A stretch of DNA of 64,000 bases from Pocillopora verrucosa (Eukaryota; Cnidaria; Anthozoa; Scleractinia; Pocilloporidae): positions 5,565,849-5,629,848 of the forward strand of contig NC_089318.1 in assembly GCF_036669915.1 (NCBI RefSeq), given 5' to 3'. The notes beneath the pieces are model-generated. The model made no database searches, was not told the DNA's origin, and was given only the letters and a program-made list of their open reading frames with translations. The position numbers and the translations under genes are program-made. This document shows positions 4,965 through 54,278 of this stretch, one piece after another (position 1 is the stretch's first letter; each line of letters starts with the position of its first letter).

Positions 4965-4998
4965 GCTGGCGCATTGTTACCGGCAGCCATGCTGGCGC
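4947..4998. repeat. Two-copy 26-bp tandem repeat over the LINE start codon
   Basis: The 26-base units at 4947-4972 and 4973-4998 differ by one base (TTATCGG against TTACCGG). Each contains the minus-strand start context with ATG. Because 26 is not a multiple of three, the upstream ATG (4990) opens a different, short frame overlapping the start of the main ORF. Confidence 0.85.
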
Positions 4999-18624: not shown

Positions 18625-21600
18625 ATGGTCGCCGGAGCGTATGCAACGAGCCCCAGAAGGCAGAAAACGTACAAAAATGGCTACTCTACCAAAGCTAATG
18701 GATTTGCAGCTCATGAGCAAGCGAAACTTAAAGAGTTTAAAGAGTCTTTTACCGAGGATTTCGAGGATACACCGTTTCAAGTCGCTGTTTTAACGTATCT
18801 ATCTTACTTCTTTTTGATTCTGTTCGGCTACTTACGTGACTTCATGCGAAAATACGGTTTGGAAAAGTCGAAAGCACCGAAAGAGGGCGGAAATGAGGTG
18901 AGAATGTGATCTAAAAGTGCTTTTACTTACAAAGAAATATTCATAGCTTCCTGAAATCATTACGGATTTCAAGATCAGGCACAGTTCTCTGATGTCAGCT
19001 GTTGCTGTACAATCACGAATCGCTACACCACAATTTGAGGGCGTCGACCGAAATTATTTTTAGTCAAAAACTTCCTTTCATCAAGCTTCGATTCTGTAAC
19101 TATACTTCCCATAAAGAAAATTCGTCGAGGGAGGAATTATTTTTTCTTGGAATGTGAATTTAATGCCCGAGTTATTCACAAAATATTCGTTCTCGTTCTT
19201 CGATCGATGCAACGCGCTTCGTTTCGCAATGTTTTGACGGTGAGACGCATGGGCAAATGGACTGATATTGTCATTGAACAAGAATGTAGAGGCCTGTGGT
19301 CATTCATAAATTTAAAATAACGCAATGTGACAACATCTAGATGTTACATATTTCCCTGGCAGTATAATGTATCCGCTTAAAACCCGTACAATTATGATGT
19401 AAGTGCATGCTATTGCAAACTCAACAGCTTGGAAAGATCACCATACCAAGATAAAATGTGTCACTCGGGAAAATTAGCTCTCCTTTTTTTTCGATGAAAA
19501 CAGTTACGTTAACCCCTAATCCACCAAGAGGTCTTTGACAAATTTCCTCTTTAGTTGTCTTGTGTTCATTCCTTGTCTTCTCGTTTTCATCCTCTGTTTG
19601 TTGGATATAAATTTGCTGTTACGAAATTTCTAGAGGTCACATGCTAATCACCTCAATAAGCCAAAGAGCTAAGGTTTGAAAATAAGGTCGGATTTTCATG
19701 AGGCCACATTTATCTATAATTTTAGGCTAAAACCTGATGTTTACAAATTGATAAAGAGGGTAATTTTGTAAAGAAACTACATGTACATGGGGTGGGGTGT
19801 AATTAGATAATTTGGTTTTGTCAGCTGACTTAATAATATGGCCTTGTCAAAATTTCTAAAGCTGATGTTTTGTGTGTTAGTCTTTTGTCAGAGTAAATTA
19901 GGTATTTCATGCAAGGCATTTTACACTGAGGTTTTTAATGTTAGCTTTTCATCAGAGAAATTAAGAGCTTATTTCAATCCAATGCTGATAAACCAAAATC
20001 ATAGTAGTCACAATTGCAAGTCTTAGCAAAGGGAGCAAGGGTCCAATGAGAATTCAGAGTGAAAGCAAGCTAACTACTAATAGCACGGGAAACTCTGACC
20101 AACCAAGTTATGGTTGGTTTTTTGTTTGGATCTGATTGATGTCAGTTTTCTGAACCAATCAAGTGGTGAAATAAACCAGAACCAAATAAATCTTGGAATG
20201 CATACAACACTCGATTTGAAATTGCTCTAAAAAGGAGTGTTTAAATCAGGTTATTTTTTACTCTTTTTATTGTTCTTGGTAACCTGATATTTTATGTTTT
20301 TTTCTAGCATGCTTTATTCATTAGTACCTTGTTCTACTGCACTTGCCCTTCCTTATACTCAGAACAATTTAACCCTTTAACTCCCAAGATCTCATTAGTA
20401 ATAACTGTGTATATACAATTCCTATGATGTTAATTCAGAGATAATGTTATTATGTCAAACAGTAATCCCATAAATTTATTTTTTTTTTAAATTGTTATTA
20501 CTGGTTGTTATTGTATTGATTGTAACTAAAGGAGAAAATGCTCTTGGTTACTCCTGGGTGTTAACCCTTTAACTCCCAGATCAAATTTGTAATTCGCCTT
20601 ACTGTCAACCATGTAATTCTTATAATGTTAGTTCAGAGAATTAAGTATTGGATCAACTAATTATCCCAAATTGATATATTTCTTTATTCTCATCACTTAC
20701 CTGGTTGATATTGCATCAATAATGTAAGGAGAAATTCTGTTTTGGTCACTCATGGGAGTTAAAGGGTTAAAGGATTTGCAGTCTTAATAACTTACTGTGA
20801 AAAGTCGAGTAGACCTCATTTTCTCCAAACTACTTAACAAGACTTAAAGCAATGTTTAGAACAAAAGGAAAGGAAATAACACTTTAAAAGTGTGCCATGG
20901 AGAAGTGGGGTGAAATGAAAAGCAGTTGGCTGGCTAAACTCAAATTTCTAAACTAAGCTTAAAAAGTAAATCCTTTTAGCACATGTATCAAGCATGGCCT
21001 TGTTTTTCTTGATAACTAACACTTATAATACTGTGTAAAATACAATTTGGCCTAAGTGCATCAGATATTTGTTTGTCAATGAATAATATTATATTCTCAT
21101 TGTTTGACCCTTAAATATTCAATATTATACAGTTCATGTAACTCCTATGCCTGCATGACTTTCTCAATTGATTTGTCCACCTGTCAGTGTGTCTTCATCA
21201 CATTTTTAAATGTAGAAGTTCACAGTTTTGTTTCAGAAACTAAAGGTTACTTGAGTCTCTTCCCTTGTTTTGTTTTGTTTTTCAGAGTTTTGTCCCTCTT
21301 TATGCGGATTTTGAAAGTTTCTACACAAGGAATCTTTATACTCGAATAAGAGACTGCTGGAACAGACCAATCTGCAGTGTTCCTGGTGCAGATATTGAAA
21401 TTCTTGATAGAGTCACTGATAATTATGGGTGGTCTTTCAGGTATGATGTACATACCTAAGTTTTTAAAAATTGTTTTAAAGCATTTTTTGCAAGGGACCT
21501 TCAAGGTCATAACTGCTTAAATTGTTGGTAATAATTATTGAAATACTTGCAGATACCAGAGAAGACAATGTGCCTCAGTTAACATGCCAAAAAAAGGCAA

Positions 21601-24600
21601 AAACTCAAAATTAAATTCATTTTTTATGTATGTAAAGAACTGGATAAAATCTCCAGCCATCCAAGGAGTTGGTCAGAGCAAAACTTATATTTGATTGGAC
21701 ATTGACTGTTGACTAGCTATTGTTCTGAGCCTTAATCTTGCATTCCCAAGTTAGCAGAGTCAATTTAGAACATTACAGTTAGAATATAAGTTACAGAACT
21801 ACTGTAAGGCAGCTTTATTGATTACTGATTTTATTAATGACATACCTGGTGTATTTTTAAATTTCTTTTCTTAGAAAAACTGGAGAGACCACAAAAGCAC
21901 TTAATCTTGGTTCTTATAACTACCTTGGCTTTGCGGAAAATGTGGGTCCATGTGCTGAGGCTGCTGAGAAAACAGTGCTTAAATATGGTCTGGGAGGCTG
22001 TAGTCCAAGACATGAATATGGTGAGCTAAACAACGTTTCTGTGGCAGAAAATGATCAGTAGTAGAGCAAATGCCAACTCCTTTGGGGTGGGACTAGGACT
22101 TTGCATTTCATGTAGTACAGTGTGGGTGCCTCAGGCTAGCAACTTTTGTATTTGGGGAACTGGTAAAACTTTACTTCTATAAAAGCTTTTTGAGTAGGAT
22201 ATCTAGATGTTTTGTATCAGAGTCCTCAGTAATTTCTCCAAGAGTGCAAAGTTTGTAATTGAGCAAAGTGGCCCATACAGTCAGCACTTATCTTGGTTTC
22301 TGTAGTATGAAATGCCTGGGAGAATTATTTCTCCCCCCTGGATGGGGATGCTAGTCTGCCTTAAGGTTAACCCTAAGCACTTCATCAAACTTCCCAAACA
22401 CTTTGCCAGTACTCATTTATACTCCTGGGTGGAGAGAGGAACTGTGAAAGGAAAGTGTTTTTCCTAAGAACACAATAATGCCCCCAGTCAGGTCTTGAAT
22501 TAAGACCTCTTGGCTTAAAGTCCAGCACATCAGCCATTGGGTCATTGCTTCCCCCAGATTGCTTTTCCAAGAGTGCAGCTGTGGTAGTGCTGGTCCAGAG
22601 CAAGGTTACCCATTAGGCAGTGTTTCTTCAGCTTTCCCTCACAAGTAATTGTTCAGAGGATTTTGTTTCCTCTCCAGGAACTCTTCACATTCATGATGAA
22701 CTGGAAGCTCTTGTGGCACGGTTTCTTAATAAGCCTGCAGCAATAGCTTTTGGAATGGGTTTTGCTACAAACTCCACCAACATACCCACTCTGGTGGGGA
22801 AAGGCGATTTGATTGTCAGTGATGAGTTGAATCACTCCTCCCTTGTTCTGGGAGCCAGATTGTCTGGGGCTAAAATAAAGGTCTTCAAACATAATGGTAA
22901 GAATTGATGATTAATTTGATTAAAGAAATCTGGTAAATACTGCAGGTCATTTTACAAGGAATTCATTATACTGTTAATCCAATGATTGGGTATTGTAGTG
23001 AGAAATTTTATTTGAATTTTAGACATGAAAAGCCTGGAGAATATTCTTCGGGAATCTGTTGTTCAGGGACAGCCACGCACTCACAGACCTTGGGGAAAAA
23101 TTCTCATTATTGTTGAAGGAATTTACAGGTATGTATTAAGTGAGGTAAAATGCTAGTTGGACCAATGCAGACTCAAGGTAATGCCAGCTGATGTTGTCAT
23201 GTTAAAATTTAACATTGGTTGAATGACCTGGCAGGGTCTGATGGGGTTTTACATCTCCACTGTGTTGACTGAACACTTTTAGCCTGAAGAGTGACTAAAA
23301 TCTAAGTTCTCGTTACAACATCACCCCTGAATCAAACATCAAGGTCATGAGAATAAAGGAGATGATCATCAACTTAAGAAGCTAGGAAATCTTTAGAGAT
23401 CAGTATGGAGAATATGCTTGAGTTGATAACAGGATGTTATGTATACTTATAATGGTGTAAAGGGCTAAAAACACTGATTTGTTCATGAATACTGCAATTT
23501 TTTGTAAATATTGGTAGCTCACACCTTCCCATCATCTTAAGGATTACATTAGGTCTTTTCTTTTTTTTACTTTGGTGCTTTGTCTTTGTATATTGTTATG
23601 AGAAAATCAATGCTTTTTGGTTTTTGATCAAAGCATGCATGTATTGTGATTGAACCAATAATACTGTATATGGGATGGTGCCATGATCTCTAACACTAGG
23701 CCCAGAAATATTGCTTGCAAAAATACAGTGGGGCTGTAAATATCTGAATTTTTCCATAATTCATTTTGTGCTACTTACTTTCTAATGAATTTTTTTATTT
23801 CCAGTATGGAAGGTTCAATAGTGAGATTGCCTGAGGTAGTAGCTCTTAAAAAGAAGTACAAAGCTTACCTTTTCCTTGACGAAGCTCACAGTATTGGTGC
23901 TATGGGCCCCAATGGAAGAGGTGTAACAGACTACTTTGGGGTGGACCCTGCTGATGTTGACATCATGATGGGAACATTTACGAAGAGTTTTGGTGCAGCT
24001 GGGGGATACATTGCTGCAACTGAGGTTAGCATTGAAAAGTCTTGTTCTCTAGCTGAAGGGGGTGCTTGGGAAAAACCCCAACTGATCTAGTGATTGACTA
24101 CTAGATCCTCCTGTTAATTTGTCAGTTAATTCCTTGTTAAACAAAAGGAGAAGTTGGTGTTGCATCAAAAGGCACTCAGGGCTTTTTTATTTGCAGTCCT
24201 TCAATTATGTATATCCATGAATCAATTTCCTTTGATTCATACTGAGAGATTAATTATTGTGAGACATCAAATCAAAAACATTCTTGTTAACAAATGATGA
24301 TAAAAGTTTGGTTCTGATCTCTTTATCTCTCTTGTTGTGCTGCTCGGATGGTGAACTAAGTTTTATTTCGCAGGAAATAATAAACCATATCAGGGGAAGT
24401 TCCCACAGTGCTGCATATGCTTCTTCCATGTCACCCCCTGTTGTGATGCAGATTATTGCTTCCATGAAGATGATTATGGGTGAAGATGGCACTGACAAAG
24501 GTTTGTTTATCTTAACACTTTGACCCTTCAGAATGACAAGCATTCACTAATCTCTCTGTACAATAACACGCGTGAATCGCATATTAAGGTCATGAGAATG

Positions 24601-27143
24601 AAGGAAATGATCACCAACTAATGATACTCTTGATTGTCAAACAAATTCTCCTTGTCAGCACTTTAGAAAATGTATAGAGACTAGTAAGGAGAATGTGCAT
24701 ACTGATGTTAGGGTGTAAAGGGTTATTACATGGTGTACTTACAATACAGTGATCATGTGATCTACTTGGGTGAGGTGCTTAGCATGAAGTGTTAACCAAA
24801 GCACACATATATGAGGATTTGACCACCAGTCAGTTCCATTGTTACTTTCAGATGAACTACTTGTACCAACTGAGTGACAAACTTTTTTTTTTTCTTCTTG
24901 TCAATTTTTAATTTGCAGGAAAGAAAAGACTTGTTCAGTTGGCTGAAAATTGCAAGTAAGAGAAAAATTCTGATATCTTTGGTTAGATTGTAGAGGTTTG
25001 TGGATTAATGTACACAGAATTTAATAAATAGGAAAGTTAAAAGTTTTTAGCGATGAAGGCCAGGGGCGCCTGACATAACAGATACGTGTTGCTCAACTAT
25101 ATTCTGATTTGGACGAGGTAATAGTGTTAGCATCATTAACAGTTTGCATATACACGAAGTTTAGTGTAACTAAATTATAGCCAATTCTTTAAAAACGATT
25201 AACCATCAAGAATAGAAAAAACAAAAGGCCTACCCCATACATACTAATGATGCGGATGTATCAAGCTTATGCACGCACGTGCGATATTTTGACGCGCTCA
25301 TTTCTTTTTTTATTCGCACTTGCATGCGACGTTTGGTGCGTATTATGTGCGTTTTTTTGGTTAACGTATATCTTAGCGGTACTGTACTCACACCATCTTT
25401 CCTCCTTTAGCTAAGCAAAGTTTGTAGATTAAAAAATCGTGTTTATCATTAATTGGAGTCAGTCTTTTGACGCGTTAACTTCCAAGATCTGATTCATATA
25501 TCTCCCTTAACATGTAACTATTACTGTTCAGGTACTTCCGACAGAGACTCAAGCAGATGGGATTTATTGTGTACGGTCATGATGCCTCCCCAGTCGTTCC
25601 TCTTCTTCTCTACATGCCAGCAAAAATCGCGTAAGTGAGACGCTGATTACACTATCAGTACGATATCTAGCAGACAAGTGATGAGAATAAAGAAAAATAT
25701 AAATCAGGGGATTATTGGTCGATACAATTCTAAATTCTCCAAACTAACATCATATGAATTGTATAGTAGATAGTAAGGAAAACTTTCAATGAGATCTTGG
25801 GAATGAAAGGGTTAATAAATGGATTCCGTGTTCGGTTATATATGACAGACTTGCAACCCGACACTTAGCGTGTAGAGCAGGTGTGAGACTGCTGAATATT
25901 TTCTCGGTGAAAATTACAGCTGGCTTCTTTGATTTAATTTAGGGTAGCGGAAGAAAGGGGGCGAGCGACGGTTCAAGGGAAGGAGGTGGGGGGGGGGGGG
26001 GGTGGAGTAACTCTAAATCAAACATGGGTGGCCGGATGAACGATCGCGACCTCGTAGCACCCACGCTCTAATAAGACGCTTGCATTGCAGGCTACCCAAA
26101 ACTTTGTTTTCTAGGTATGGTTAACCTGTGGTTTCGCTCTGTCGTGTGCTATATTGCGCCATGTCGAGGCTATGTGAGAGAGGAATACTGATAGTTTCCT
26201 TTGCATACTTATACAAAAAAATGTATTTCTTTGTTTTTCTGTTTGTGCGTGTTGAAGCTAATGCTTTTTTTCTTTTAGTGCATTTGGCCGTGAAATGCTG
26301 AAAAGGAACGTTGCTGTGGTTGTGGTTGGTTTTCCTGCCACCCCTCTCATCGAGTCTCGCACCAGATTCTGTCTGTCTGCCGCGCATACCCGTGAAATGC
26401 TGGACAAGGTGGGTGAGAGCTACTGTTGCTATGGCATCGAATCTTCTAACAGAGCCACACTTTTCCTTCGGAACCCCTTGTGATAAAAACAGCGTGACAA
26501 AGAAAAAACAACAACAAACAAACAATAAGTACTCAGTAGTCAACACCCACTGGGTTCTGCAATTTTAGAGAAGGAAATAAAACTAAAGAACCTAGAAAAA
26601 ATAAATTGGGATAAATCTTCTTGGAATTAGGAAGATAGTCATCAATAATCTCGACTTCGTTCTGACGCAAAATGTGGGAAAAAAATGAACCCCTCTGGAT
26701 ATAGGAGTACTCAACAATCTGTTACCAAGACTGGATGCTCTCGAATATCCTGTCTTGAAGTTGAATTTATTGGTTGAGGCTTTGGATAGTGCATTTGACT
26801 TTGGCGCGTCGAGAGGAACTCTGAGAGTCCCGTGCGGCGCGCTTAAGTCAATTTTCTTTTCTTTTTTTTTTTTTTTTTTTTTCGGCGTTGACTCGCGTGA
26901 TGAAACTCGCCCGAAAAGGATGCACCTCTTGTAGTCTACATATTCCTCGATTCAAATTGGATTCGTGAGTTGTTTTGGTTTACATGGATGTAAAAAAATC
27001 CTCTATGCCACTTATCAGTGTTTTCACGTGTAGTGTTAATTTTTTCCTTTTTGTAATATTTTTTTAATCAGGCTTTGGAAGCCATCGATGAAGTAGGTGA
27101 CATTCTTCAACTCAAATACTCGAAACAGACACAGAAGAAATAA
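18625..27143 (+). CDS. SPTLC2: Serine palmitoyltransferase subunit 2 (SPTLC2/3-like), copy 1
   Basis: This is a PLP-dependent subunit that, with SPTLC1, condenses serine and palmitoyl-CoA at the ER, the first step of sphingolipid synthesis. Eleven exons: 18625-18897, 21286-21440, 21875-22020, 22678-22896, 23023-23128, 23805-24024, 24374-24500, 24919-24955, 25532-25630, 26279-26408, 27072-27143. All join in frame to 527 residues, close to the 550-560 of vertebrate SPTLC2/3. Exon 1 encodes the membrane segment ([20 protein letters not shown]). Later exons give [36 protein letters not shown], the PLP-lysine motif [13 protein letters not shown] and [19 protein letters not shown]. Exon 2 starts Ser-Phe-Val where copies 2 and 3 have Gly-Phe-Val. 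Every exon except the first and last has the same length as in copies 2 and 3, but the sequence is clearly diverged (exon 4 about 80-85% identical at protein level by eye). Intron 1 (2.4 kb) holds two adjacent MITEs. Confidence 0.93.
19795..20236. repeat. Dispersed repeats in SPT copy 1 intron 1
   Basis: About 19795-19870 resembles the AGATAATTTGGTTTT block of the G-rich repeat near 15755. About 20030-20236 is another diverged CCAAT-rich repeat (GGTTTTTTGTTTGGATCTGATTG, then CCAATCAAG). Confidence 0.5.
20369..20564. mobile_element. TTAACCC-type MITE, copy 2
   Basis: It starts TTAACCCTTTAACTCCCAAG and ends CTCCTGGGTGTTAA, a decayed form of the usual right terminus. Its right-hand TTAA is shared with the next copy. 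Confidence 0.75.
20561..20770. mobile_element. TTAACCC-type MITE, copy 3
   Basis: It starts TTAACCCTTTAACTCCCAG and ends GGGAGTTAAAGGGTTAA with intact termini. It abuts copy 2 and shares one TTAA, as if one copy inserted at the end of the other. Confidence 0.8.
22331..22610 (-). mobile_element. tRNA-derived SINE in SPT copy 1 intron 3
   Basis: Read on the minus strand, a tRNA-like head lies near 22600-22480: TGACCCAATGGCTGATGTGC (A-box region) and AGAGGTCTTAATTCAAGACC (B-box region). It is followed by a tail including CTGGGTGGAGAGAGG (read on +, near 22424) that recurs in cnidarian short interspersed elements. The head no longer folds as a clean cloverleaf. Confidence 0.55.
23275..23465. repeat. 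Dispersed AAGGTCATGAGAATAAAG repeat, copy 1
   Basis: It lies in intron 5 of SPT copy 1. Ordered motifs AAGGTCATGAGAATAAAG, GATGATCATCAAC and AGTATGGAGAATATG recur at 24513-24725, 33530-33668, 43386-43497, 58228-58433 and inverted at 50012-50165. Confidence 0.6.
24513..24725. repeat. Dispersed AAGGTCATGAGAATAAAG repeat, copy 2
   Basis: It lies just inside intron 7 of SPT copy 1, starting about 13 bases after the exon 7 donor. The ends AACACTTTGACCC and GGGTGTAAAGGGTTA are imperfect inverted termini like those of the TTAACCC MITEs. Confidence 0.65.
25645..25815. mobile_element. TTAACCC-type MITE, right half
   Basis: In intron 9 of SPT copy 1, GATGAGAATAAAGAAAAATA, ATTCTCCAAACTAACATCAT and GAGATCTTGGGAATGAAAGG match the right part of the MITE at 16183. 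A short left-end-like stretch, TTAACTTCCAAGATCTGATT, lies on the other side of exon 9 near 25480. Confidence 0.6.
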
Positions 27144-28484: not shown

Positions 28485-28650
28485 TGCGGGTAATGTGGCG
28501 CGAAAAAAATGCAGGGACATGATGTCTGATTTTTAAAGCTTCCACGAGTCACAATCAATTCGAGATAAATTGGGTCTGTGCGTATCAGTGACTTTCTTGG
28601 TAAAAATTAAAATTCTCGTGTGATATTCATATTTCAGCTTTAAAAGCTAT

Positions 28651-28708
28651 ATCAAAATTATCCTTAAAGACTGCTTCTATAGAAGCAGTCTTTAAGGATA
28701 ATTTTGAT
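28651..28708. repeat. 58-bp perfect palindrome
   Basis: The arms 28651-28679 and 28680-28708 are exact reverse complements with no spacer (centre CTTCTA|TAGAAG). Unit B has only the right arm at the matching place (about 37830), preceded directly by CTTGAAAAGC. Confidence 0.95.
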
Positions 28709-28811
28709 AAAGACGGTGAAATTGACCTCATGTTCATCTTAGCTCGCGTGATGGGTAAACCGCGTGACCAGATAATCGCGGGACTCGAAATATTAGGCAG
28801 AATGAGATGAG
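28680..28811 (+). pseudogene. Exon-like remnant with DKDGEID motif (unit A)
   Basis: From the right palindrome arm an open frame reads KDNFDKDGEIDLMF, then ARVMGKPRDQIIAGLEILG, and ends at TGA in front of AGGTAACG. In unit B (about 37830-37965) the same stretch has a frame-breaking deletion and an internal TGA. The DKDGEID block looks like an EF-hand loop, but the surrounding residues do not confirm one. I do not recognise the family; it may be the tail exon of a lost gene carried along by the duplication. Confidence 0.35.
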
Positions 28812-29888: not shown

Positions 29889-32800
29889 ATGGTGGCCGGT
29901 GCCCATGCAACGCGGCGAGTACAACATTCTATGAAAAATGGCTTTCCAAAGGGATCCAACGGCTTTGCAAGCCACCGGAGAGAGTTAAACACAGAGCTGG
30001 AGGAGGATCTCGAGGAGCCACCACTGTTTATCGCTGTTATGACATACTTGGCGTATTTCTTCTTTATAATCTTCGGTTACATGCGTGACTTCATGCGCAA
30101 GTACGGATTAGAGAAGTCCAAGTTTGTTAAGGAAACAGGAAATCAGGTAAGGATATCACTTTAATTAAAAAATCTTGTCTGTGCTTAGATGAAGAGAAAG
30201 TAATTTTACTATAGGCTATGCAATCTCTAAACCTTGATTTATAAGTTAGGCAATGTAATTCTACCAGCGCTTAATCCTTACTTATGAAGAAACATTCGTG
30301 ACTCGCTACGGCGAGTACGGCATTGAAACCTGTTTTTGCCGCCAAGAGAGAAAAAAAAGGGTAATGTTGGAATTTAATTACTACAGTTACAGATGGATTA
30401 CGACTCGAGGAAATCGACAGAACACGACATTGTTTTATTAGTCAAGGGCGTGAAGTTGTAAATAATACGAAGGATATCTGTTTCTTTGTTATTTATTTAT
30501 TTTTTATGAAACAACAGTAGCATACGTTAACCACGATGACAAGCATTTAAAAACTTCACTTTTGATTAAGTTCAGGTACGATCTTAGCAAGTGTACTTAT
30601 TTTTTTCTTATATTGTTTTTTTGGTCACAAATGCAGTAAAACCGCGTAGGAAAAAATTTGAATAGATAAGTCCATATGTAGATATTGCTAATATATTTTT
30701 TTTCTGTTAAATCGAGTAGAACAATGGTCGATAATGGGTAACTTTGATTATTTTTTTTCTCAGTTCGTGAGCGGGCGGTATTCTACAAATCCTGCAATCT
30801 GACTGGTTCCGAGAGCGGGCAGTATTCTACTCATCCGGCCCGCTCACGGTATCCGATCTTTTCGCAACCATTTGTTTGGTTTTTAGAAAAAATTAAAAAT
30901 GTTATTCACCAGCCAAGGTCGGTCCGTATTGGGAAAAACTGTGCCCTTTGTTTTGTGTACCGCCCGAGGCCGTAAGACCTCGGGTAATTTTCCCGGCTTC
31001 CGGCTATTATCGTCTACATCCCTGTTAACCTGTCTATGGTTTTCACTGATTGCAGGGTTTTGTGCCGCTTTATTCCGACTTTGAGAGTTTCTATACACGG
31101 AATCTTTACACTCGAGCAAGGGACTGTCTTAACAGACCCATTTGTAGTGTTCCTGGCGGAGAGGTCGTGCTCGTGGATAGAGAGTCTGAGGACTGGAACT
31201 GGACTTTCAGGTAGCATGAAAGTAATTCCCCCAGAACTTTGCCAAAGTTTGATCGTCTTTGTAGCCTTAATTTATCAAATTTATCATTAACACTAGAGAC
31301 ATAACGGGGGTTCCTGTAGATCCCTGCCCCTTCGTGGATTTTTTCTCGTGGTTGTTGTTGATTGCGCAGCATGCAAACGTAAGAAAGCGAGAAAAGATCC
31401 ACATTGGGGATGTCGACATCACATTAAGGTAGATAGTCTTAGTGTGACTCAATTAGACCCTACCTTCCCCCCCCCCCCAATTTTTGGCTGCAATCCATGT
31501 GAATCTCCGTTTCTTACCTCCGTGATGCAGAGGGATGCAGTCAGCGGTCTCTTGCGTCATGTATTAATGCCCAAGTGTCTTTCTTGCAATTCTATTTCAC
31601 TCTGACAAACTACCCTTTCAAGGTCTTTTTTAACCGCAACATGAAGGAAACTTAGAAAGTCCAGAAATTAGTAAAAAATATATCATATAACAATAAAGCT
31701 GTTTTCAACCGGAACAATAACACCCATCAATCCGCTTGGTCTAAATAGTTTTTTTGCCAATTTTCACGACATTCCAGCGGAGGTTGGATTATCACGATTA
31801 TTGATAAAAATGATTAAAAAAAACCCTTGTACACTCTGGTTTTTACACAACAGATCTACAATTTAATTGCTGTTTACATGCACTCATATCTAAACTATTA
31901 TTGACCAGGTTAAAATGAATTGTTTTCTTTAGATAAAGTGAATTGTTTTGTTTAGATACCCAGGAACGACAACCAAGACTGTCAATCTTGCCTCTTATAA
32001 TTATCTTGGGTTCGCGGAGAATTCTGGGCCGTGTCCAGATGCCGCTGAACAGGCTGTTCGTAAATATGGCATTGCGGGCTGCAGCTCAAGACATGAATAT
32101 GGTGAGTCAAAGTCCGGGAGATACTCGTTCTGGCGCTGACGTTTGACTACTGTGTTACTCCCGGAAATGTTGGTGGTGCTGTGCGGCGTGATTTTTAAAG
32201 CCCTTTCATTATTTCAGATTTGAATGTAAGAGTTACATGTACCGGCTTTTTCAGAGAAAGGGCAACCAGGCTACTTCTTTAAAATGAGCTAAATAGCTTC
32301 CAGTAACAATGTAACTCCGTTTTGTATGGAAACATTCAACTAATACGCGAAAATCATTCGACATTCCTCAATAGATACAATAAAACCTGGAGCCTGAAAA
32401 TAACGTCAAAGGCATTACATTTGGAAAAAAGTCCGAGTCTAGAAAGGGCGCATTCCCTCTCTACGTTTGAGATTTCATTTTGCCTACATTCGACGCTCCA
32501 TTGATCTTTCAACTTCCAGTTCCTCACAGCTTTTCTCCATTTTCCAGGGACCCTTGATATTCATAACGAGTTAGAAGCTCTTGTCGCCAAGTTTGTTGGT
32601 AAGCCTGCAGCTATGGTGTTTGGTATGGGATTCGCCACTAACTCTGCAAACATCCCCACCCTAGTGGGCAAGGGGGATCTGATTATCAGTGATGAGCTGA
32701 ACCACACATCGCTTATCTTAGGAGCAAGACTGTCAGGAGCGAAGATTAAAGTCTTCAAACATAACGGTAAGATCAAGTTGGCACAAGAAGATTGAGGCCT

Positions 32801-35800
32801 GCCTGGCCAGAGTATGTCTTGATTTCTGTTGCGCGAGGCGAGTAGGAGTATTGCCGCTCTCCTCTGAAACGAGGGCCAATGCATCACAGCTTACTCCACT
32901 TCGCCGGCGCCCGTATAATTCATATCTCGGGATAAAGAAGGGAACTATGATTGTGCATTCCTTGACCCTTAGCTAGCGTTGTTTGAACTGGTCTTTAAAG
33001 GGGATAGAGATAATAAGACCCTCTCCTTTCTACCTTTATTGCAGATATGGCGAGTTTGGAGAAAATCTTGCATGAGTCGGTTTCTCAGGGACAGCCAATA
33101 ACTCATCGTGCGTGGAAAAAGATTCTAATCATTGTCGAAGGGGTTTATAGGTAACTCAAGTCATCCTTTTAGGACAAGACATTTTATATGAAACAGTGTT
33201 TACAGATATTCCCTCAGGGCCGGGTTGTTCAAAAGGGGGTAAACTTTGATCTAGGATTAAAAATTAACTTTGGCTTCAATTTCACATGTAGAAGAGCGCG
33301 TATACGATCTAAGTTTTTTGTTGGGTTTTATCTCAAATGACTCGAAACTAATCGGAAAAATTATAAAAATTTTTTGCAAAGCTTTTAAATTGATTAAAAA
33401 AATTACACAAACCCCTGGTTAGATGAATCGTGTTTTTAGCAACCCCGGTCTGGACCTTAATTAACGAGTATTTTTGTACCTTCTGTACGATAATCAAGAA
33501 GTTCTTCGTATTCAATAGCGTGGAATATTAACTGAATCGAACATTAAGGTCACAAAAATAAATCATCAGCTGAAAAAGCTCTTGATTGTTAAACGAATTC
33601 TCCTTGTCAGTACCAAAGGGAATGTATAAAGAACAGTACGGAGAATATGGATACTGATGTAAAGGGTTAGGCTTAATGTTACACGAGTTGGCAACAATTT
33701 TTTTTTTCAGTATGGAGGGCTCCCTCGCGAAGCTCCCAGGGATTGTTGCCCTTAAAAAGAAGTACAAAGCTTACTTATACCTTGACGAGGCTCACAGTAT
33801 CGGTGCCATGGGCCCAAATGGAAGAGGTGTTACTGAATACTTTGGGGTGGACCCTGCTGATGTTGATATCATGATGGGAACATTTACAAAGAGTTTTGCT
33901 GCAGCTGGGGGATACATTGCTGCGTCACAGGTAAGAACCACTTGTTGCCTATTTTGGCACCAACACTGACGCTTAAAAAAGTGGTACATATCAATAATTT
34001 ATGGGAATATTGAGGTTTATTTTATAGCCAACTGTAATGAATGTACTGCTATGTATCTTTGAGTCATTGTTAGTATCTGAGCAAATGTGCACCTTATCCC
34101 TCCCCTGTCCCAACAAAATTCGACCGATAACAAGTTATGGTTACAGTTGGGTCAGGGGAGGGTAGGTGTGTAGTTTCTCAGATACTGACATTGATCTGTA
34201 CCTTTCATTTGAATGATCTCGCATTAAGGTAAGTAAGCGATTCGAAAGCTTCGAGTGGTAACCCCAAATAATAATTTATTATTTCTTCCAGGAAATAATA
34301 GATCATATCAAAGGAAGTTCCCATAGTGCAGCGTACGCCTCTTTCATGTCGCCTCCAGTAGTCATGCAAATAATATCTTCAATGAAAATAATCATGGGCG
34401 AGGATGGAACAAGTAAAGGTTAGTTATAAAATGTAAAATTTCTGGTACATCTCTTAAACAGAGCGATCAAACTTCTGTTCATGTGCGAACGTTGTAATGA
34501 CTAGGTGGCCTACTTTCAGACAGTCAGAACATGTTGTCTCACAGGAGCTATAGCCTATCAATCGGTTGTTTCATATGTTTTCCTTTCAAATTTTCCGCTG
34601 GAAATTGGTGCGCGGCCGGTCAGAATGGATCCCCTCGCACATGCCCGACGCCGTCGGTTTGTCTGTTCTCCGCTAAGTCTTAAATTCTATTGGTCGATGG
34701 CCAAGAAGTAAAAGCTAATACAACTTCGTTTTAGGGATGCTTCTCCTCTAGGAGCGCACAGTTCATTTACTTCAGTTTCCTGTGGACAAAATGCTGTCTC
34801 ATAGGAGAGGCGTGTATCGCTTTGCGAGTCCACGAATTGAGGGCGAGAGCTTTAATAGCTGAAACCGATTTTACAGCTTGCGTAGAATATTGTTTTCTTT
34901 CGTTTGCTCTAAATTGTTTGTCCTAACAGCCATGCAATCTTGTTTCTTCTTTTGTCTCTGTGCCAAAACATCACGAAAAGAGTGTAACGCCACTTTCTTT
35001 TCTTTTTTCGCAAAGCATCAATTTCCTTATTCCTATGTCTGTGCTAGAGTTTTCTTGATTATTTTTACCTACATTTCAATAAAAACTTCTGTTAGATTGT
35101 TTCTGTACATTGAAGTTTAGAGAGTGTTACTTCTCGTCTCAAGTTGACGTTTTTCCTATGTTCTCAGGAAAGCAGAGGCTTACCAGATTGGCACAGAATT
35201 GCAAGTATGTGGAATTATATGAAGAATTAAGCCAGTTTTTTCCCTACAAAGGCTTGAGCCAAATATTTTTTACATATATTTTGTGAGGCAGGCGACAGCC
35301 GGGAGTCGATATTTCCTTGCCATCTCAGTTGGTGCTTACGAAAGATCTTAAAGATCTATCGCGTCTGGTTCCAAATGCTAAAACAATGCCCCTCATTATT
35401 AGCGCTGCGGCACGAGGGTTTTGCTGCCCGCAGAAAGTTTGAGACAGGCCAGCGGTTTACGAGGGGGTCTGCTAGTAATTGATGGAGCACTTTTCAGATG
35501 GGGGCCTAATCACAGGATAAAATTTTCCCCATTTCTCTAAATCGTCCCTGCTTACATCCCCTAATGATGATTAAGAAACCATTGCTCAGCGAGAGTAGTC
35601 ACCTCCAACATTATTTCATGACTTGACTTAATCTTTGAGCTGTTTACATGACAGGTACTTCCGACAAAAGCTGAAAAAGATGGGCTATATAGTGTACGGC
35701 CATGATGCCTCAGCAGTAGTACCCATTCTTCTTTACATGCCGGCAAAAACGGTGTAAGTTTTCTTTTTCCTTTGATAAAGTGAATGAAAGTAAACTTTAA

Positions 35801-37082
35801 GAGCTCCAGTTGCGTTGAACCTTTCCTCTTAGTAGGCACACTTAGAAAATTTGCTTCTATGTTAGTTGGGAATTTACGAGAAAAGTGACCAGCTCTGTAA
35901 CCAACGAGAACTAAAATGTGAAAAAAGCAACCGTTAAAAGCGCGGGGAAACGCGGGTGACCAAGTCGTGATTGGCTTTGGTTTTGCATCTGATTGGTCGA
36001 GAGAGTGGCGCGAGTTTTCTGAACCATTTACAGAGCGAAGCAAAGCCAATGCAATCACGGATTACTTGCGAGACTCAATTGAGGGAACACAGATAACGCA
36101 GTGGTGGGTTGCTCTCGCGCTTACCGCGAGTCGCCTGGGTCCAGCTTGCTATTGGTTTTCTTCGAGGGTTTTTCTCTGGACCCTTCTTTTTTTCTTCCAT
36201 CACAAAACCAAGTCTTATTCGAAATGGAAACAGTAGACGAACAACCATTCTGTGTATGCGTTACTGCTAAATTCTGTTAATTTATCATTCTGATTTCACT
36301 TGTCTCTCTTTAAATGAGCCTGTTTCATGCTCCTATCAAGAAAACAGATTGAAATGTATGAAAGAATGCGCTGAAACGTGTGTGTATTACCTCAATCACT
36401 GACTCAAGGATGGCGTTTTGTTAAGGTTTAGGGCGATTATTCAAACTGTTCAATAATTTGACTTTGTTCCAGTGCCTTTTCGCGTGAAATGCTCAAAAGA
36501 GGTGTGGCTGTGGTCATTGTAGGGTTCCCTGCCACTTCACTGATTGAATCAAGAGCAAGGATTTGTCTGTCTGCGTCACACACCAAGGAAATGCTTGATA
36601 AGGTAACGTGAGTCAATCCTTTCGTAATATCCTTACGTCTTCTTCTTTACGAGACAAAATATCTGTCCGAATACTAAACCTTTTCTCTCTTAGAACCTAT
36701 TTTTCATAACCAACCAGGTGTAAGGGTGAAACTGGGAGTATTTTAAGTTAAATTTCCCTTTTTTCCTCTTTCTTGTTGTTGTTGTTGTTGTTGTTGTTTT
36801 CCTTTTATTACCATTGGATTCGCTAGCATTTGCTGGTTCATGGCAAATTTCACGCGCGTTTTCTGGCGCACAAGTTTTTTCACACGAGCGTTTCTCTTGC
36901 ACATGTATTCTCTTTTGTGTTTGCTATTTCTAGTGCGTCTTGCATCACAATTGTTTTCATTTGCTCGCGTTTCTGACCCAGGGTATTAATTTTTCTTTCC
37001 TTAGGCTTTGAACGCCATTGACGAGGTTGGGGATATACTTAGGGTCAAGTATTCAAGGCGAAAGAAAAATGCTAAATCGTGA
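29889..37082 (+). CDS. SPTLC2: Serine palmitoyltransferase subunit 2 (SPTLC2/3-like), copy 2
   Basis: Same enzyme role as copy 1. Eleven exons: 29889-30146, 31056-31210, 31956-32101, 32548-32766, 33045-33150, 33711-33930, 34292-34418, 35168-35204, 35655-35753, 36473-36602, 37005-37082; 524 residues, all in frame with GT/AG introns. The membrane segment is [18 protein letters not shown]. Catalytic-region motifs [22 protein letters not shown] and GTFTKSF are present, but the residue after KSF is Ala (KSFAAAGGY) where copies 1 and 3 and characterised SPTLC2 have Gly. Other differences from copy 3 are few: exon 1 AH/TY, P/T, A/S, F/L and F/S; exon 2 A/V, L/F, V/A; exon 3 P/A, K/E; exon 5 A/T; exon 7 M/I; exon 10 S/A, K/R; exon 11 K/E. 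A second acceptor-like TTTCTTTAG at about 31932 precedes exon 3. The start context and about 1.4 kb upstream are shared with copy 3. Confidence 0.92.
30725..31010. mobile_element. Insertion private to unit A, intron 1
   Basis: After GTCGATAATGGGTAACTTTG the two units diverge. Here unit A has GTGAGCGGGCGGTATTCTAC and CGGCCCGCTCAC as an inverted pair, then a GGTCGGTCCGTATTGGG segment. These look like small inverted-repeat elements that inserted after the units separated, or were lost from unit B. Confidence 0.5.
33530..33668. repeat. Dispersed AAGGTCATGAGAATAAAG repeat, copy 3
   Basis: It lies in intron 5 of SPT copy 2: AACATTAAGGTCACAAAAAT, AATTCTCCTTGTCAGTACC and GGAGAATATGGATACTGATG. In copy 3 its left part is replaced by an inverted exon 1 fragment. 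Confidence 0.6.
35815..36085 (+). repeat. CCAAT-rich dispersed repeat (unit A)
   Basis: In intron 9 of SPT copy 2: GCGGGGAAACGCGGGTGACC, GTGATTGG, GCATCTGATTGGTCGAGAGA, then ACAGAGCGAAGCAAAGCC. The expected CCAATCAC is altered to CCATTTAC here. It is duplicated in unit B at 45655-45900. Confidence 0.75.
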
Positions 37083-39044: not shown

Positions 39045-42000
39045 ATGGTGGCCGGTACTTATGCAACGCGGCGAGTACAACATTCCATGAAAAATGGCTT
39101 TCCAAAGGGATCCAACGGCTTTGCAAGCCATCGGAGAGAGTTAAACACAGAGCTGGAAGAGGATCTCGAGGAGACACCACTGTTTATCGCTGTTATGACA
39201 TACTTGTCGTATTTCTTCTTGATAATCTTCGGCTACATGCGTGACTTCATGCGCAAGTACGGATTAGAGAAGTCCAAGTCTGTTAAGGAAACAGGAAATC
39301 AGGTAAGGATATTACTTTAATTAAAGAATCTTGTCTGTGCTTAGATGAAAGAGAAAGTAATTTTACTTTAGGCTATGCAATCTCTAAACCTTGAATTATA
39401 AATTAGGCAATGTAATTCTACCAGCGCTTAACCCTTACGTATAAAGAAACATTTGTGACTCGCTATGGCAAGTACAGCATTGAACCCTGTTTTAGTCGCA
39501 ATGAAAAAAAAAGAGTAATATTTGAAATGAATTACTACAGTCACAGATAAATTACGACTCGAAGAAACCGACAGAACACGACATTGATTTATTAGTCAAG
39601 AGCGTGAAGTTGTAAATAATCCGATTGAAAGCAATGTGTGGCAAGAACTTGCCAGAGTACTTTTTGTCAGTGATTAAAGGAAAGCTATAAGCAAAATTAC
39701 TTCAACTCTTGTGCCGAAAGCTGAAGAAAATTTTGATATGTCTACAAAATTAAGGAGGTGTGTTTCATGACCTATGGACTTTTAGCCTAACGCATGCTCA
39801 ATGGGTGCAATACTCGGTGGCGTGACCAAGCGTGATCTTGGGGCACGTGCAATGAGCAGAACGTTTGCATAGCGGATGAAGAAAATGTTAATTCTTTACG
39901 ACCTTCTTTCAAACGAATTGGATAAACTCAGGCTGTGATCGTCTCTATTAATTACTAAACGGTGTTCTTTTGAAACCTTCTAATGTCTTGATGTGTGTCG
40001 CAAACGGTTGTGCAAGCGTGGAAGCGTAAAGGATATCTTTTTCTTTGATATTTATTTATTTTTTATGAAACAACATTAACATACGTTAACCACGATGAGA
40101 AGCATTTGAAAGTTTCACTTTTGATTAAGTTCAGCTACGATCTTAACAAGTGTACTTATTTTTTCTTAAGTTATTTTTTTGTCACAAATGCAGCAAAACC
40201 GCAAAGAAAAAAATAATAAGTCTGAAGAAGTCCATGTGTTGATATCGCTAATATTTTTTTTGCTCAGACGAGTAGAACAATGGTCGATAATGGGTAACTT
40301 TGAGTATGTAAACGTATTTTCCTCAGAAAAGTTAAGGACAGGAGAATATCAGATGTTGATATTCTCTAGTTAAGGATTAATATCACGCGTGTTTTCAGAA
40401 GTTCCAGAGGTTGCTGCAATTTCTGAAAACACAAGTGATAACAATCCATAATTTTACGAGGAAAAATGCGTTTACTTGTTTATGATGTAAAGGACAAAAT
40501 TTCTGTTCCCTGTTGAGCAATTCTGTAGGAGCCATTTCAATTTTCAGGTAACCTCAATAAATTGTGTTAATTGACGCACGAATCAGCAGTATTAAATTTT
40601 ATTTTTGTACAACAACGCCAAAGCAATGAAACCAACCCTGCTGAAAAATAATTTGCTATCAATGGCATTGTAATACTTACATTACATGACCGTTACTCAT
40701 TGGTCGCCAATTCAGCAAGTTTGCAAATTGAATGACCAAAAGTTTCATCTACCCGCCATGGTGATCAAAAAGACTGTAGATGGAAGTGCTGTCAAAAAGA
40801 GGCTTCTTTGTTTATCATGAGTTGATTAACCTTTCTATGGTTTTCACTGATTGCAGGGTTTTGTGCCGCTTTATTCCGACTTTGAGAGTTTCTATACACG
40901 AAATCTTTACACTCGTGTGAGGGACTGTTTTAACAGACCCATTTGTAGTGTTCCTGGCGGAGAGGTCGCGCTCGTGGATAGAGAGTCTGAGGACTGGAAC
41001 TGGACTTTCAGGTAGCTTTAAAGTAATTCCCCCAGAACTTTGTCAAAGTTTGACCGATTAGACCCTACTCTCTCCCCCTCCCCCCCCCCCATTTTTTTGC
41101 AAAATGTTAGCCACGCTCCTGTGCAATCCATGTGAACCTTCTGTGATGATTTTACAAGGGATGCATTCAGCGGTCTCTTGTGTCATGTAATAATGCCCAA
41201 GTGCCTTTCTGGCAACTCTATTTTACTCTGACAAACTATCCTTCCAGGGTCTTTTTTAACACCAACATAAAGGAAACTTAGAAAGTCTAGAAATGAATCA
41301 AAAAGTATATCATAAACCAATGAAGCTCTTTTCAACCAGAACAATAACTCCCATCAATTCGCTTGCTCTCAGTAGTTTTTGCCAATTTTCACGACATTCC
41401 AGCGAAGATTTGTTTTTATTTTTCAAATAACCTTTGTACACTTTGGTTTTTGCACAACATATCTACTATTTAATTGCTGTTTACGTGCACTTATATCTAA
41501 ACTTTTACTGATCAGGTTAAAATGAATTGTTTTGTTTAGATACCCAGGAACGACAACAAAGACTGTCAATCTTGCCTCTTATAATTATCTTGGGTTCGCG
41601 GAGAATTCTGGGCCGTGTGCAGATGCCGCTGAACAGGCTGTTCGTGAATATGGCATTGCGGGCTGCAGCTCAAGACATGAATATGGTGAGTCAAAGTCCG
41701 GGAGATACTCGTTCTGGCGCTGACGTTTGACTGCTGTGTGGGTACTCCCGGAAATGTTGGTGGTGCTGTGCGGCGTGATTTTTGAAGCCCTTTCATTATT
41801 TCAGATTTGGATGTAAGAGTTACATGTACCAGCTTTTTCAGAGAAAGGGCAACCAGGCTACTTCTTTAAAATGAGCTAAATAGCTTCCAGTAACAATGTA
41901 ACTTCGTTTTGTATGGAAACATTGAACTAATACGCGAAAATCATTCGACATTCATCAATAGATTTATAATAAAACCTGGAGCCTGAAAATAACGTCAAAG

Positions 42001-45000
42001 GCATTATATTTGGAATAAAGTCTATAAAGGGCGCATTCCCTCTCTACGTTTGAGATTTCATTTTGCCTACATTCGACGCTCCATTGATCTTTCAACTTCC
42101 AGTTCCTCACAGCATTTCTCCATTTTCCAGGGACCCTTGATATTCATAACGAGTTAGAAGCTCTTGTCGCCAAGTTTGTTGGTAAGCCTGCAGCTATGGT
42201 GTTTGGTATGGGATTCGCCACCAACTCTGCAAACATCCCCACCCTGGTGGGCAAGGGAGATCTGATTATTAGTGATGAGCTGAACCACACATCGCTCATC
42301 TTAGGAGCAAGACTGTCAGGAGCGAAGATTAAAGTCTTCAAACATAACGGTAAGATCAAGTTGGCACAAGAAGATTGAGGCCTGCCTGGCCAGAGTATGT
42401 CTTGATTTCTGTTGCGCGAGGCGAGTAGGAGTATTGCCGCTCTCCTCTGAAACGAGGGCCAATCCATCACAGCTTACTCCTTCCCCAGACTTCTCTGACA
42501 CTTCGCCGGCACCTGTATAATTCATATCCCTGAATAAAGAAGAGAATTATGTGTGTATTCCAGAAACAACACAATGACTCAGCAAGGGATCAAACTCTAG
42601 CCCCATCATGAGCCCTGTGGTACCAGTGTTTCTTCTTGGGGTAAGCCGGCGAAAGGTTTGCGAGGGATCTGGTACTAACAGAGGTAGACCTTGCGTAGAT
42701 TTCTTTGTGGCTTGCTTTTCTCAAAGCCTGGAACTAACTCACAGGCAAGGATTAAAAAAAACGCTCGTGTCGCAGCGGTAATAGTGAGAGCCTACTTGCA
42801 AGGACTTCTTTGCGCTTCACTCTTCGCGCTTCACTCTTCACGCTTCACTCTTCACGCTTCACTCTTCACGCTTCGCCCTTCACGCATTACGGAAACGTAG
42901 ACTACGGCTGATAACTGCAGTGATTTTCACCTTTATCCCGAATTTCTTGCCCCTAATCTTATCTAGCGTTGTTTGAGCTGGTCCTAAGGAGATAGAGATA
43001 ATAAGACCCTCTCCTTTTTACCTTCATTGCAGATATGACGAGTTTGGAGAAAATCTTGCATGAGTCGGTTTCTCAGGGACAGCCAATAACTCACCGTGCG
43101 TGGAAAAAGATTCTCATCATAGTTGAAGGTGTCTATAGGTAACTCAAGTCATCCTTTTAGAACAACACTTTTTGTATGAAACAGTGTCTACAGATATTCC
43201 CTTAGGTTGTTAAAAAGGGGGTAAACTTTAGTCTAGTAGGAAAAATAAACCTTGGCTTCAATTTCACATGTGGAAGAGCGCGTACACGAGCTAAGTTTTT
43301 GTATGTCATAACAGCGATTAACAGTGGTGTCTCCTCGAGATCCTCTTCCAGCTCTGTGTTTAACTCTCTCCGGTGGCTTGCAAAAATAAATCATCAGCTG
43401 AAAAAGCTCTTGATTGTTAAACGAATTCTCCTTGTCAGTAGCAAAGGGAATATATAAAGAACAGTACGGAGAATATGGATACTGATGTAAAGAGTTAGGC
43501 TTAATGTTACACGAGTTGGTAACAAATTTTTTTTTCAGTATGGAGGGCTCCCTCGCGAAGCTCCCAGGGATTGTTGCCCTTAAAAAGAAGTACAAAGCTT
43601 ACTTATACCTAGACGAGGCTCACAGTATTGGTGCCATGGGCCCAAATGGAAGAGGTGTTACTGAATACTTTGGGGTGGACCCTGCTGATGTTGATATCAT
43701 GATGGGAACATTTACAAAGAGTTTTGGTGCAGCCGGGGGATACATTGCTGCGTCACAGGTAAGAACCACTTGTTGCTTATTTTGGCACCAACACCGACGC
43801 TCAAAAAAGTGGTACATATCAATAATTTATGGGAATATTGAGGTTTATTTTATAGCCAACTGTAATGAATCAGTGTACGGCTATGTATCTTTGAATCATT
43901 GTTAGTATCTGAGCAAATGCGCACCTTACCCCTCCCTGTCCCAACAAAATTCGACCGATAACATGGTTACAGTTGGATCAGGGGAGGGTAGGTGTGTAGT
44001 TTCTCAGATACTGACATTGATCTGCACCTTTCATTTGAATGATCTCGCATTAAGGTAAGTAAGCGATTCGAAAGCTTCGAGTGATAACCCAAAATAATAA
44101 TTTATTATCTCTTCCAGGAAATAATAGATCATATCAAAGGAAGTTCCCATAGTGCAGCGTACGCCTCTTTCATGTCGCCTCCAGTAGTCATGCAAATAAT
44201 ATCTTCAATAAAGATAATCATGGGCGAGGACGGAACAAGTAAAGGTTGGTAATAAAATGTAAAATTTCTGGTGCATCTCTTAAACTCAGTGATCAAACTT
44301 CTGTTCATGTGCGAACGTTGTAACGACTAGGTGGCCTACTTTCAGACAGTCAGAACCAAGTGGTCTTACAGGAGCTATAGCCAACCAATCGGTTGTTTCT
44401 TATGTTTTCCTTTGAAATTTTCCGCTGGAAATTGGTGCGCGGCCGGTCAGAATGGATCCCCTCGCGCATGCCCGACGTTTGTCTGTTCTCCGCTAAGCCT
44501 TAAATTCTATTGGTCGATGGCCAACCGACCAACAACCTCGTTTTAGGGATGCTTCTCCTCTAACGAGAAAGGAGCGCACAGTTCATTTACTTCAGTTTCT
44601 TGTGGACAAAATACTGTCTCTTAGGAGAGGCGTGTATCTCTTTGCGAATCCACGAATCGAGGGCGAGAGCTTTAATAGCTGAAACCGATTTTACAGCTTG
44701 CGTAGAATATTGTTTTCTTCCCTTTGCTCTAGATTGTTTGTCCTAACAGCCATGCAATCTTGTTTCTTCTTTTGTCTCTGTGCCAAAACATCACGAAAAG
44801 AGCGTAACGCCACTTTCTTTTCTTTTTTCGCAAAGCATCAATTTCCCTATTCCTATGTCTGTGCTAGAGTTTTCTTGATTATTTTATCTGCATTTGAATA
44901 AAAACTTCTGTTAGATTGTTTCTGTACATTGAAGTTTAGAGAGGGTTACTTCTCGTCTCAAGTTGACGGTTTTCCTATGTTCTCAGGAAAGCAGAGGCTT

Positions 45001-52715: not shown

Positions 52716-54278
52716 AACGAAGAGATGGAGAATCTGGAAGCAGCTTATTGACAGGAGTACTCTATAAACTCTCTTGCGCACTGCCTGCTGTCACTTCAGT
52801 GACTTCATACAGCCTAAAGATAGAAGCAAGAGTAGGAACAGGAAGCTAAGCACAGCATTTTCCCAAGCATCCCCCCCCCCCGTCACATCACCTTCCAATC
52901 CCTTGAACCCGTGTAATTAATTGAGGCGGTGATCTTCCTCCCCAACTGACAATGGTTGATCGCAATAGGCCACCTCCGGATAAAATAACAGTCGAGAAAT
53001 ATAGCTTAAAAAACGACATAGGAACAGTAGAGAAGAAGTCTGAATTAATTCATCCAGCACAAAAATGCATAGATGACGTTACCTAAATTTCCTCACAATA
53101 AAGTTCGACGTGCGACACCATTTTCGCTTTCTGTCTTTGTCAATATTCTTCAAAATATTGTACAGCTTACTTTTATGACACTTTCTTTAGCGGTTACTAA
53201 CATCAAATCCTTGACCCATCCACTAACCCCACTTTTTTAGCTCATTTGGTCACGAAACTACGTAGAAGATGTCACGCTACTTAGCCACTGTGCGAACTAA
53301 ATCCGCTGGCCTAGTACAGAGGAACACCGGTTAATATGTACATACCGTGAAAAGTGTATGTGGTGAATATGTCACGCAAACGACAACAAATAAAACCGAG
53401 AAATTGAAATTACTCATAATGAAGGCTTTCCTTGTTAATAATCAATCGAAATCTCCAGTCTGCGTCTGGAAAAGCATTCTACCGTTCACCGCCAGCATCC
53501 ACCAACATTATAAAAGAAGCCGGGAAATCGAGAAAATTCGGAATCATTTCGAAGTTCTTCGCAAATGTTCGGGGATACTCGGAACGGGTGGATGACATTA
53601 CATTCGCCAAACTTCTCTGCGGTTGTCGTATTTGAAAAGCATTTACGAAAGGACAAATGCCATCAGAGAGCACGTATAAATAGAAAAGTACATTTATCAA
53701 AATAAAATCCACTTTTCATTTTGCAAAAGTGAGGATTAATGAGCGACTGGTGGCATGCAAAGAAGTTTGAATCCACATCACGCGTTAAATTCCTCACAAA
53801 TGATCGGAGCAGTTCTCTAATTGGTGTTTTATTTTCAGTCGAGAATTAAAGAAAATTGAAAAATTTATTGTCTAGGTCAGATTATTAGTGTGATACACAT
53901 CAATAAAAACCATCACAGTACTGGTTCAATTCTGAAGCCTAAATGTTTTCTAAGATATGAAAAAGTTGAAATTTCGTGCGTCAGAGCTTGCCATCGAGGG
54001 CGAACTACCTGTCAAAGTTTGAAACGGTTTGGTTACAGAGCTGACACCGGCCTATTTACAAACACCAAAGGTGAGAAAGTATTGCATCCTCCTGTTTACA
54101 TGTGCTGTGCGACAGTAAAACTCTTGTTGGTATTTCTGTGTTACATTCTCTGCTGTAACAATACAGCTTTCGAAAGCTGTTTAAACGCAGATCATGAGAA
54201 AGTAGATATTAAAAGAGTGATTTGGCTTTTTGTAATGCTTCATCACCACAAAGCTTTGATCGGTGAGTTTTACCCAAG
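52716..54278. other. ASPG to LPMO spacer, no gene seen
   Basis: This contains the ASPG 5' flank (with a C-tract at 52871-52880) and the LPMO 1 upstream region. A TATAAA lies at 53675-53680, about 600 bases before the LPMO start and not clearly linked to it. Short frames here lack homology I can recognise. Confidence 0.35.

Follow-up and report, generated by a model that had tools for sequence, protein, structure and literature searches.

Intron 5 of a serine palmitoyltransferase (SPT) gene of Pocillopora verrucosa carries an inverted copy of about 84 nt of coding exon 1, which stands in place of lost intron sequence. It is very likely that this insert belongs to the replication-based templated inverted insertions (MMBIR/FoSTeS), that it arose after copies 2 and 3 of a tandem gene array had separated, and that it has no function. 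All positions refer to the window, the whole stretch of 64,000 nucleotides that was analyzed (C7:5565849-5629848), and the features are collected in Table 1. Positions 43301-43383 are the reverse complement of 39121-39203, with 81 of 83 positions identical in a direct comparison. Self-BLAST of the window returned the same pair as 84 nt at 97.6% identity with an E value of 8e-35, which rules out a chance match, and aligned the insert with 29964-30047 in exon 1 of copy 2 over 84 nt as well (96.4%, 3 mismatches). When the assembly (353,415,432 bases in 52 contigs) was searched with the 83-mer, the only matches at E ≤ 0.001 among the best-scoring candidates were the insert itself and exon 1 of copies 3 (98%) and 2 (96%). 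According to the gene model, the insert lies in intron 5 (43139-43538) of copy 3 and the donor piece entirely within exon 1 (39045-39302) of the same gene, with 4,097 nt from arm to arm. The first-pass annotation had described an inverted exon 1 copy of 83 bases with two mismatches, located in intron 5 of the same SPT gene, and both statements were borne out, the former by the direct comparison and self-BLAST and the latter by the 11-exon gene model.

Table 1. Features of the window that bear on the inverted exon 1 copy
Feature	Position	Strand	Basis or remarks
Inverted, very likely templated, insertion; antisense of mid exon 1, in intron 5 of copy 3	43301..43384	-	direct comparison, BLAST, assembly search
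Candidate donor, internal to coding exon 1 of copy 3, 4.1 kb off	39120..39203	+	2 mismatches
Other candidate donor, equivalent part of copy-2 exon 1, ~13.3 kb off	29964..30047	+	3 mismatches; at two of them copy 1 agrees with the insert
Copy-2 intron 5 stretch (~233 bp) missing in copy 3, apparent ancestral state	33320..33552		alignment; polarity from dispersed repeat
Dispersed repeat that runs over the right breakpoint in copy 2 and breaks off at 43381 in copy 3	33531..33660		BLAST matches in sampled stretches; alignment
Putative further templated insertion in inverted orientation, 32 bp, found in copy 2 but not copy 3; perfect hairpin	28648..28709		copy 2/3 gaps and inverted match
Copy 3, intact 11-exon SPTLC2-type serine palmitoyltransferase gene, 524 aa	39045..46903	+	splice sites and open frame; SPTLC2 structures
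Copy 2, intact 11-exon gene, exon structure as copy 3	29889..37082	+	projection from copy 3
Copy 1, older paralogue with 46-83% protein identity, depending on the stretch matched	18625..27134	+	tblastn matches

The introns of copy 3 are all GT..AG in the gene model, and the frame of copy 2 is open too. The copy-3 protein matched SPTLC2 structures with an E value of 4.9e-214 over residues 38-519 and SPTLC1 with 1.7e-48, a similarity that identifies the host gene as SPTLC2-type rather than SPTLC1. Scanning of viral contigs with the protein found no relative, and searches of the literature on coral serine palmitoyltransferase duplication, or on coral sphingolipids, SPTLC2 and symbiosis, yielded no paper. 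Copies 2 and 3 share 1,527 of 1,572 coding positions, with a dN of 0.014 and a dS of 0.084 (Nei-Gojobori), values that make both copies look constrained. Over their whole alignment, 8,060 of 8,701 ungapped positions are identical. The noncoding divergence is 552 of 7,043 positions (0.083 after correction), a figure that includes the poorly aligned introns 1 and 2 and may be an overstatement. The noncoding sequence of these two introns of copy 3 (39668-41667) differs from copy 2 by 22-29% and has large gaps, other noncoding 1-kb bins differing by 3-9%; replaced or misaligned sequence, or gene conversion elsewhere, may account for it. The tandem-duplication joint of copies 2 and 3 was located at 37668, and the units at 28485 and 37668 start with the near-identical GCGGGTAAT.TGGCGCGAAAAAAATGCAGGGACAT. 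Outside the array, the window includes an unbroken frame of 1,191 aa on the minus strand (1401-4976) with endonuclease and reverse transcriptase domains, as in a non-LTR retrotransposon, and three open frames with matches to Pfam LPMO_10 (lytic polysaccharide mono-oxygenase) at 54267-60585, two on the plus and one on the minus strand.

The insert replaces intron sequence, as had been noted on first inspection, and the stretch of copy-2 intron 5 that is absent from copy 3 in the alignment measures approximately 233 bp (33320-33552) instead of the about 250 bases proposed then. The direction of the change could be read from a dispersed repeat of at least 130 bp, copies of which lie at 33531-33660, 24573-24708, 58274-58398 and 23290-23417. 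The copy at 33531-33660 has matches in eight of the 20 stretches of 10 kb sampled from the same chromosome (L007, L011, L012, L013, L014, L016, L017 and L019), and the homology spans the right breakpoint in four of the 20 (L007, L011, L014 and L016) as well as at 24573 and 58274 in the window. A similar stretch in intron 5 of copy 1 (23327-23357) also spans this breakpoint, with a weak match of 84% over 31 nt (E 0.007) that could represent an independent insertion of the repeat. Most repeat copies differ from copy 2 by a gap of at most 8 nt immediately beyond the right breakpoint, a place at which copy 2 and copy 3 both have the same, shorter form; otherwise the repeat is unbroken in copy 2 and elsewhere, and in copy 3 the insert takes its place. 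Since the repeat is continuous in copy 2 and at other locations and interrupted in copy 3, the alignment indicates that copy 3 carries the derived state. The donor exon was kept: exon 1 is open in both copies. The opposite order, with copy 3 ancestral and copy 2 derived, was ruled out by the same repeat, since it runs on across the breakpoint in copy 2 but breaks off there in copy 3. The lost stretch had no match except itself in the 264 kb formed by the window and the samples (short-match search, E 0.1), and under the other search setting its last ~20 bases belong to the dispersed repeat.

The identity of the donor was examined at the four sites of the 83 nt that vary among the insert, copy 3 and copy 2. 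At two of them copy 2 alone deviates, copy 1 agreeing with the insert and copy 3, and one site, counted among the two mismatches to copy 3, has a base found in the insert alone. The remaining site is a synonymous C/T position in a His codon, with C in the insert and copy 2 and T in copies 3 and 1. The observation that one site (CCACCGG) follows copy 2 and another follows copy 3 is real, and a third informative site, where the insert reads GGAA and not GGAG, sides with copy 3 as well. A third allele as donor, proposed on that ground, is possible; it proved unnecessary, as either candidate donor can explain all four sites and no third donor is found among the best assembly matches of the 83-mer, which are three with the insert itself included. 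An early exon 1 of copy 2, or exon 1 of copy 3 with one more change at the His site, would account for the whole mosaic. Because copy 1 has T like copy 3 at the His site, a donor in copy 3 costs one step more than a donor in copy 2. Copy 1 is distant (59% protein identity in exon 1), and if C stood at this site in the ancestor that copies 2 and 3 share, both donors would need equal numbers of changes. Copy 3 is the nearer candidate, at 4,097 bp against ~13.3 kb, and has fewer mismatches. On these site patterns, the donor may be exon 1 of either copy. If the insert were as old as the duplication, the noncoding divergence of copies 2 and 3 would predict 3.4 changes on it, and one or two were observed (P(≤2) 0.33). 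Its age may fall anywhere within the life of copy 3. The count is consistent with neutral decay, and the complementarity to exon 1 gives no sign of upkeep.

At the left junction, the acceptor reads ...AAGTTTTTT/GT..., the donor ...ACAA/GTATGTC... and the product ...AAGTTTTTGTATGTC..., where the slash marks the breakpoint. The dinucleotide GT is a microhomology of 2 nt provided that a run of six Ts has lost one of them; without such a loss there is none. At the right junction, donor and acceptor have in common the four nucleotides CAAA. Short matches had been claimed at both ends, and the claim stood unconditionally for the right junction and for the left one only under the proviso of the lost T. 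Among 200,000 random junction pairs drawn from the same donor and acceptor, 0.56% had at least 4 nt at one junction and at least 2 nt at the other. The flanks of the insert differ and there is no target-site duplication. Excerpts of a human survey describe MMBIR templated insertions as inverted copies near their template and flanked by microhomology, with 2-12 bp, 3.7 on average, at 80% of the junctions examined (PMC8421209). The template-switch repair suggested by the first-pass annotation is well supported by the inverted copy, a donor in the same array, the replaced intron, the right microhomology and the polarity given by the repeat. In intron 5 of copy 3, a replication fork or an intermediate of break repair would have switched template twice. 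In the first switch, ~84 nt of exon 1 would have been copied in inverted orientation from copy 3 (4.1 kb away) or copy 2 (~13.3 kb away), and in the second the fork would have returned ~233 bp further along, leaving the inverted copy in place of the lost intron. The insert would since have been removed with intron 5 from each transcript and have drifted. The inverted copy, the intron loss, the junction sequences and the polarity are directly shown; the enzymology, which a single product cannot tell, and the choice of donor exon we infer. Against assignment to MMBIR count the left junction, which may lack microhomology, and the distance of at least 4.1 kb, which exceeds what the human and great-ape surveys, in the portions considered here, examined.

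Polymerase theta end joining, or the capture of a free exon 1 fragment during end joining, is an unlikely alternative to the replication template switch, even though either would yield nearly the same product and microhomologies of 0-2 and 4 nt with a loss of ~233 bp fit it as well. Templated insertions made by polymerase theta are usually far shorter than 84 nt and have closer templates, and a captured free fragment would have no reason to originate in the same gene array.

The predicted RNA structure bears on a different reading, in which the insert would be a functional antisense element and pairing of exon 1 with intron 5 would steer editing, circularization of exons 2-5, small RNAs or splicing. 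The predicted energy of the duplex between the arms is -163 kcal/mol, compared with -38.9 kcal/mol for the exon 1 arm with intron 5 of copy 2 and with a mean of -34.7 and a best value of -52.8 kcal/mol for 200 shuffled inserts; trans pairing of the insert with exon 1 of copy 2 is predicted at -160.2 kcal/mol. The 4,097 nt between the arms in the primary transcript are reduced to 887 nt once introns 1-4 are out. By energy prediction, the duplex has the geometry of an ADAR substrate (83 nt with 2 mismatches within one transcript), and A-to-I editing, for which repeats and neighboring inverted copies supply dsRNA, has been surveyed in a range of animals, a sea anemone among them, and before that in one coral (PMC9989829, in part). 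Back-splicing is said to be favored when reverse-complementary flanking introns pair (PMC8938519, excerpt). The arrangement studied here is unlike the one described in that excerpt: one arm lies in exon 1, 1,654 nt from the exon 2 acceptor, and would pair with intron 5. Splice potential was scored with a position matrix built from the donors and acceptors (20 each) of the two intact copies, 2 and 3, which, being self-trained, flatters real sites. The candidate donors above 2 in the insert scored 2.3, 2.7 and 5.9, the real ones 5.9-12.1, and no acceptor in the insert exceeded the cut-off of 2. Cryptic splicing from the insert was rejected, as its best donor equals the weakest real one, and the altered splicing imagined in the first-pass annotation found no site to start from above that level. 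Read through to 43300, exon 5 runs into an immediate stop. Against a functional element also stand the presence of the insert in only one of three paralogues, a complementarity without excess conservation, and a search of the window against Rfam that gave no family at gathering score. We consider such an element very unlikely. The sequence offers no support for editing, circularization or small RNAs from the duplex; all three would be physically possible, and as a by-product of the insertion the exon 1 duplex may sometimes draw ADAR editing of unspliced transcripts. It is a highly improbable model that copy 3 acts as a self-targeting hairpin gene whose unspliced RNA or freed intron dampens or edits both copies 2 and 3; if true, a dosage brake on duplicated genes, born by one mutation, would have been caught early. 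The insert is probably a neutral scar.

A scrap of reverse-transcribed SPT mRNA, placed in antisense by retrotransposon machinery, is an extremely unlikely source. An AAAAA run follows the insert on the minus strand, and the window contains a non-LTR retrotransposon whose endonuclease and reverse transcriptase frame is open. The A-run, however, predates the insert, being found in copy 2 as well, and the insert shows neither of the hallmarks of target-primed reverse transcription, a target-site duplication and an added 3' tail; it has no exon-exon junction or UTR, and intron sequence was lost, not duplicated. Foldback reads are known to give rise to inverted copies. An assembly artefact from a chimeric or foldback read is nevertheless exceedingly improbable, since both junctions are inside a contig of 25.7 Mb and foldback chimerism makes neither a private mismatch nor a loss of ~233 bp.

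The insert was set against the background of inverted repeats in the window and the 20 sampled 10-kb stretches, a total of 264 kb with 1,429 N in which repeats were kept in the count. Six inverted pairs had a length of 40 nt or more and an identity of 90% or more within 10 kb (BLAST, E ≤ 1e-8), a count that leaves out the copy-2 hairpin through an order filter and is low for wide pairs in stretches of 10 kb. The window accounted for three of them and the samples for the other three, of which one is a self-palindrome. The pair of insert and exon 1 exceeds all others in length and in the distance between its arms; no pair in the samples reaches 60 nt. The 32 bp of copy 2 at 28648-28679, not present in copy 3, pair perfectly with the bases that follow, up to 28709, and this hairpin upstream of the copy-2 gene has the form of a local template-switch product. 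Among the 19 gaps of at least 12 bp listed for the alignment of the two copies, no gap other than this one has an inverted match close by in the hits listed (at most five per gap, E ≤ 0.01). The insert appears as three of the 19 gaps because the aligner set it against part of the lost stretch. Short-range template switches use a template within a few hundred bases. The copy-2 hairpin lies within such a distance, and the arms of the insert, 4,097 nt apart, lie outside it.

Judged by its sequence, the insert looks like a case of an already known type of mutation, with nothing to indicate any activity. It provides a polarized example of a longer-range (at least 4.1 kb) inverted templated insertion, in an array with a second, local one, and it illustrates that a coding exon can acquire an antisense partner in its own transcript by one step. 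Should editing or silencing of such exon-antisense scars be demonstrated, they would offer natural tests of how new RNA hairpins acquire a function or fail to do so.

Comparison with described systems places the insert close to three of them. It resembles the human MMBIR templated insertions (MMB-TI), as the excerpts of PMC8421209 present them, in that a nearby template was copied in inverted orientation, with junctional microhomology that is clear here at the right end and conditional at the left; in those insertions the target may or may not be replaced. It differs in the distance of the template, at least 4.1 kb here as opposed to a search within 100 bp in that survey, in its length of 83-84 nt as opposed to synthetic test insertions of 20-50 bp, and in its non-human origin. 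Short-range switches in great apes, according to part of PMC7954356, reach 128 nt with a median of 12. As in those events, an inverted change has made an inverted repeat, and 84 nt is below the maximum; they are local, however, and the copy-2 hairpin (28648-28709) fits their description better than the insert does. In the dystrophin case ascribed to a replication-based mechanism of the FoSTeS/MMBIR kind (PMC4303224, as excerpted), an inverted exon-bearing segment is likewise accompanied by flanking intron deletions and 2-bp microhomologies. There, an exon segment of 4,260 bp was inverted in a patient, whereas in copy 3 a fragment of 84 nt was copied, the donor exon stays in place and the frame is intact.
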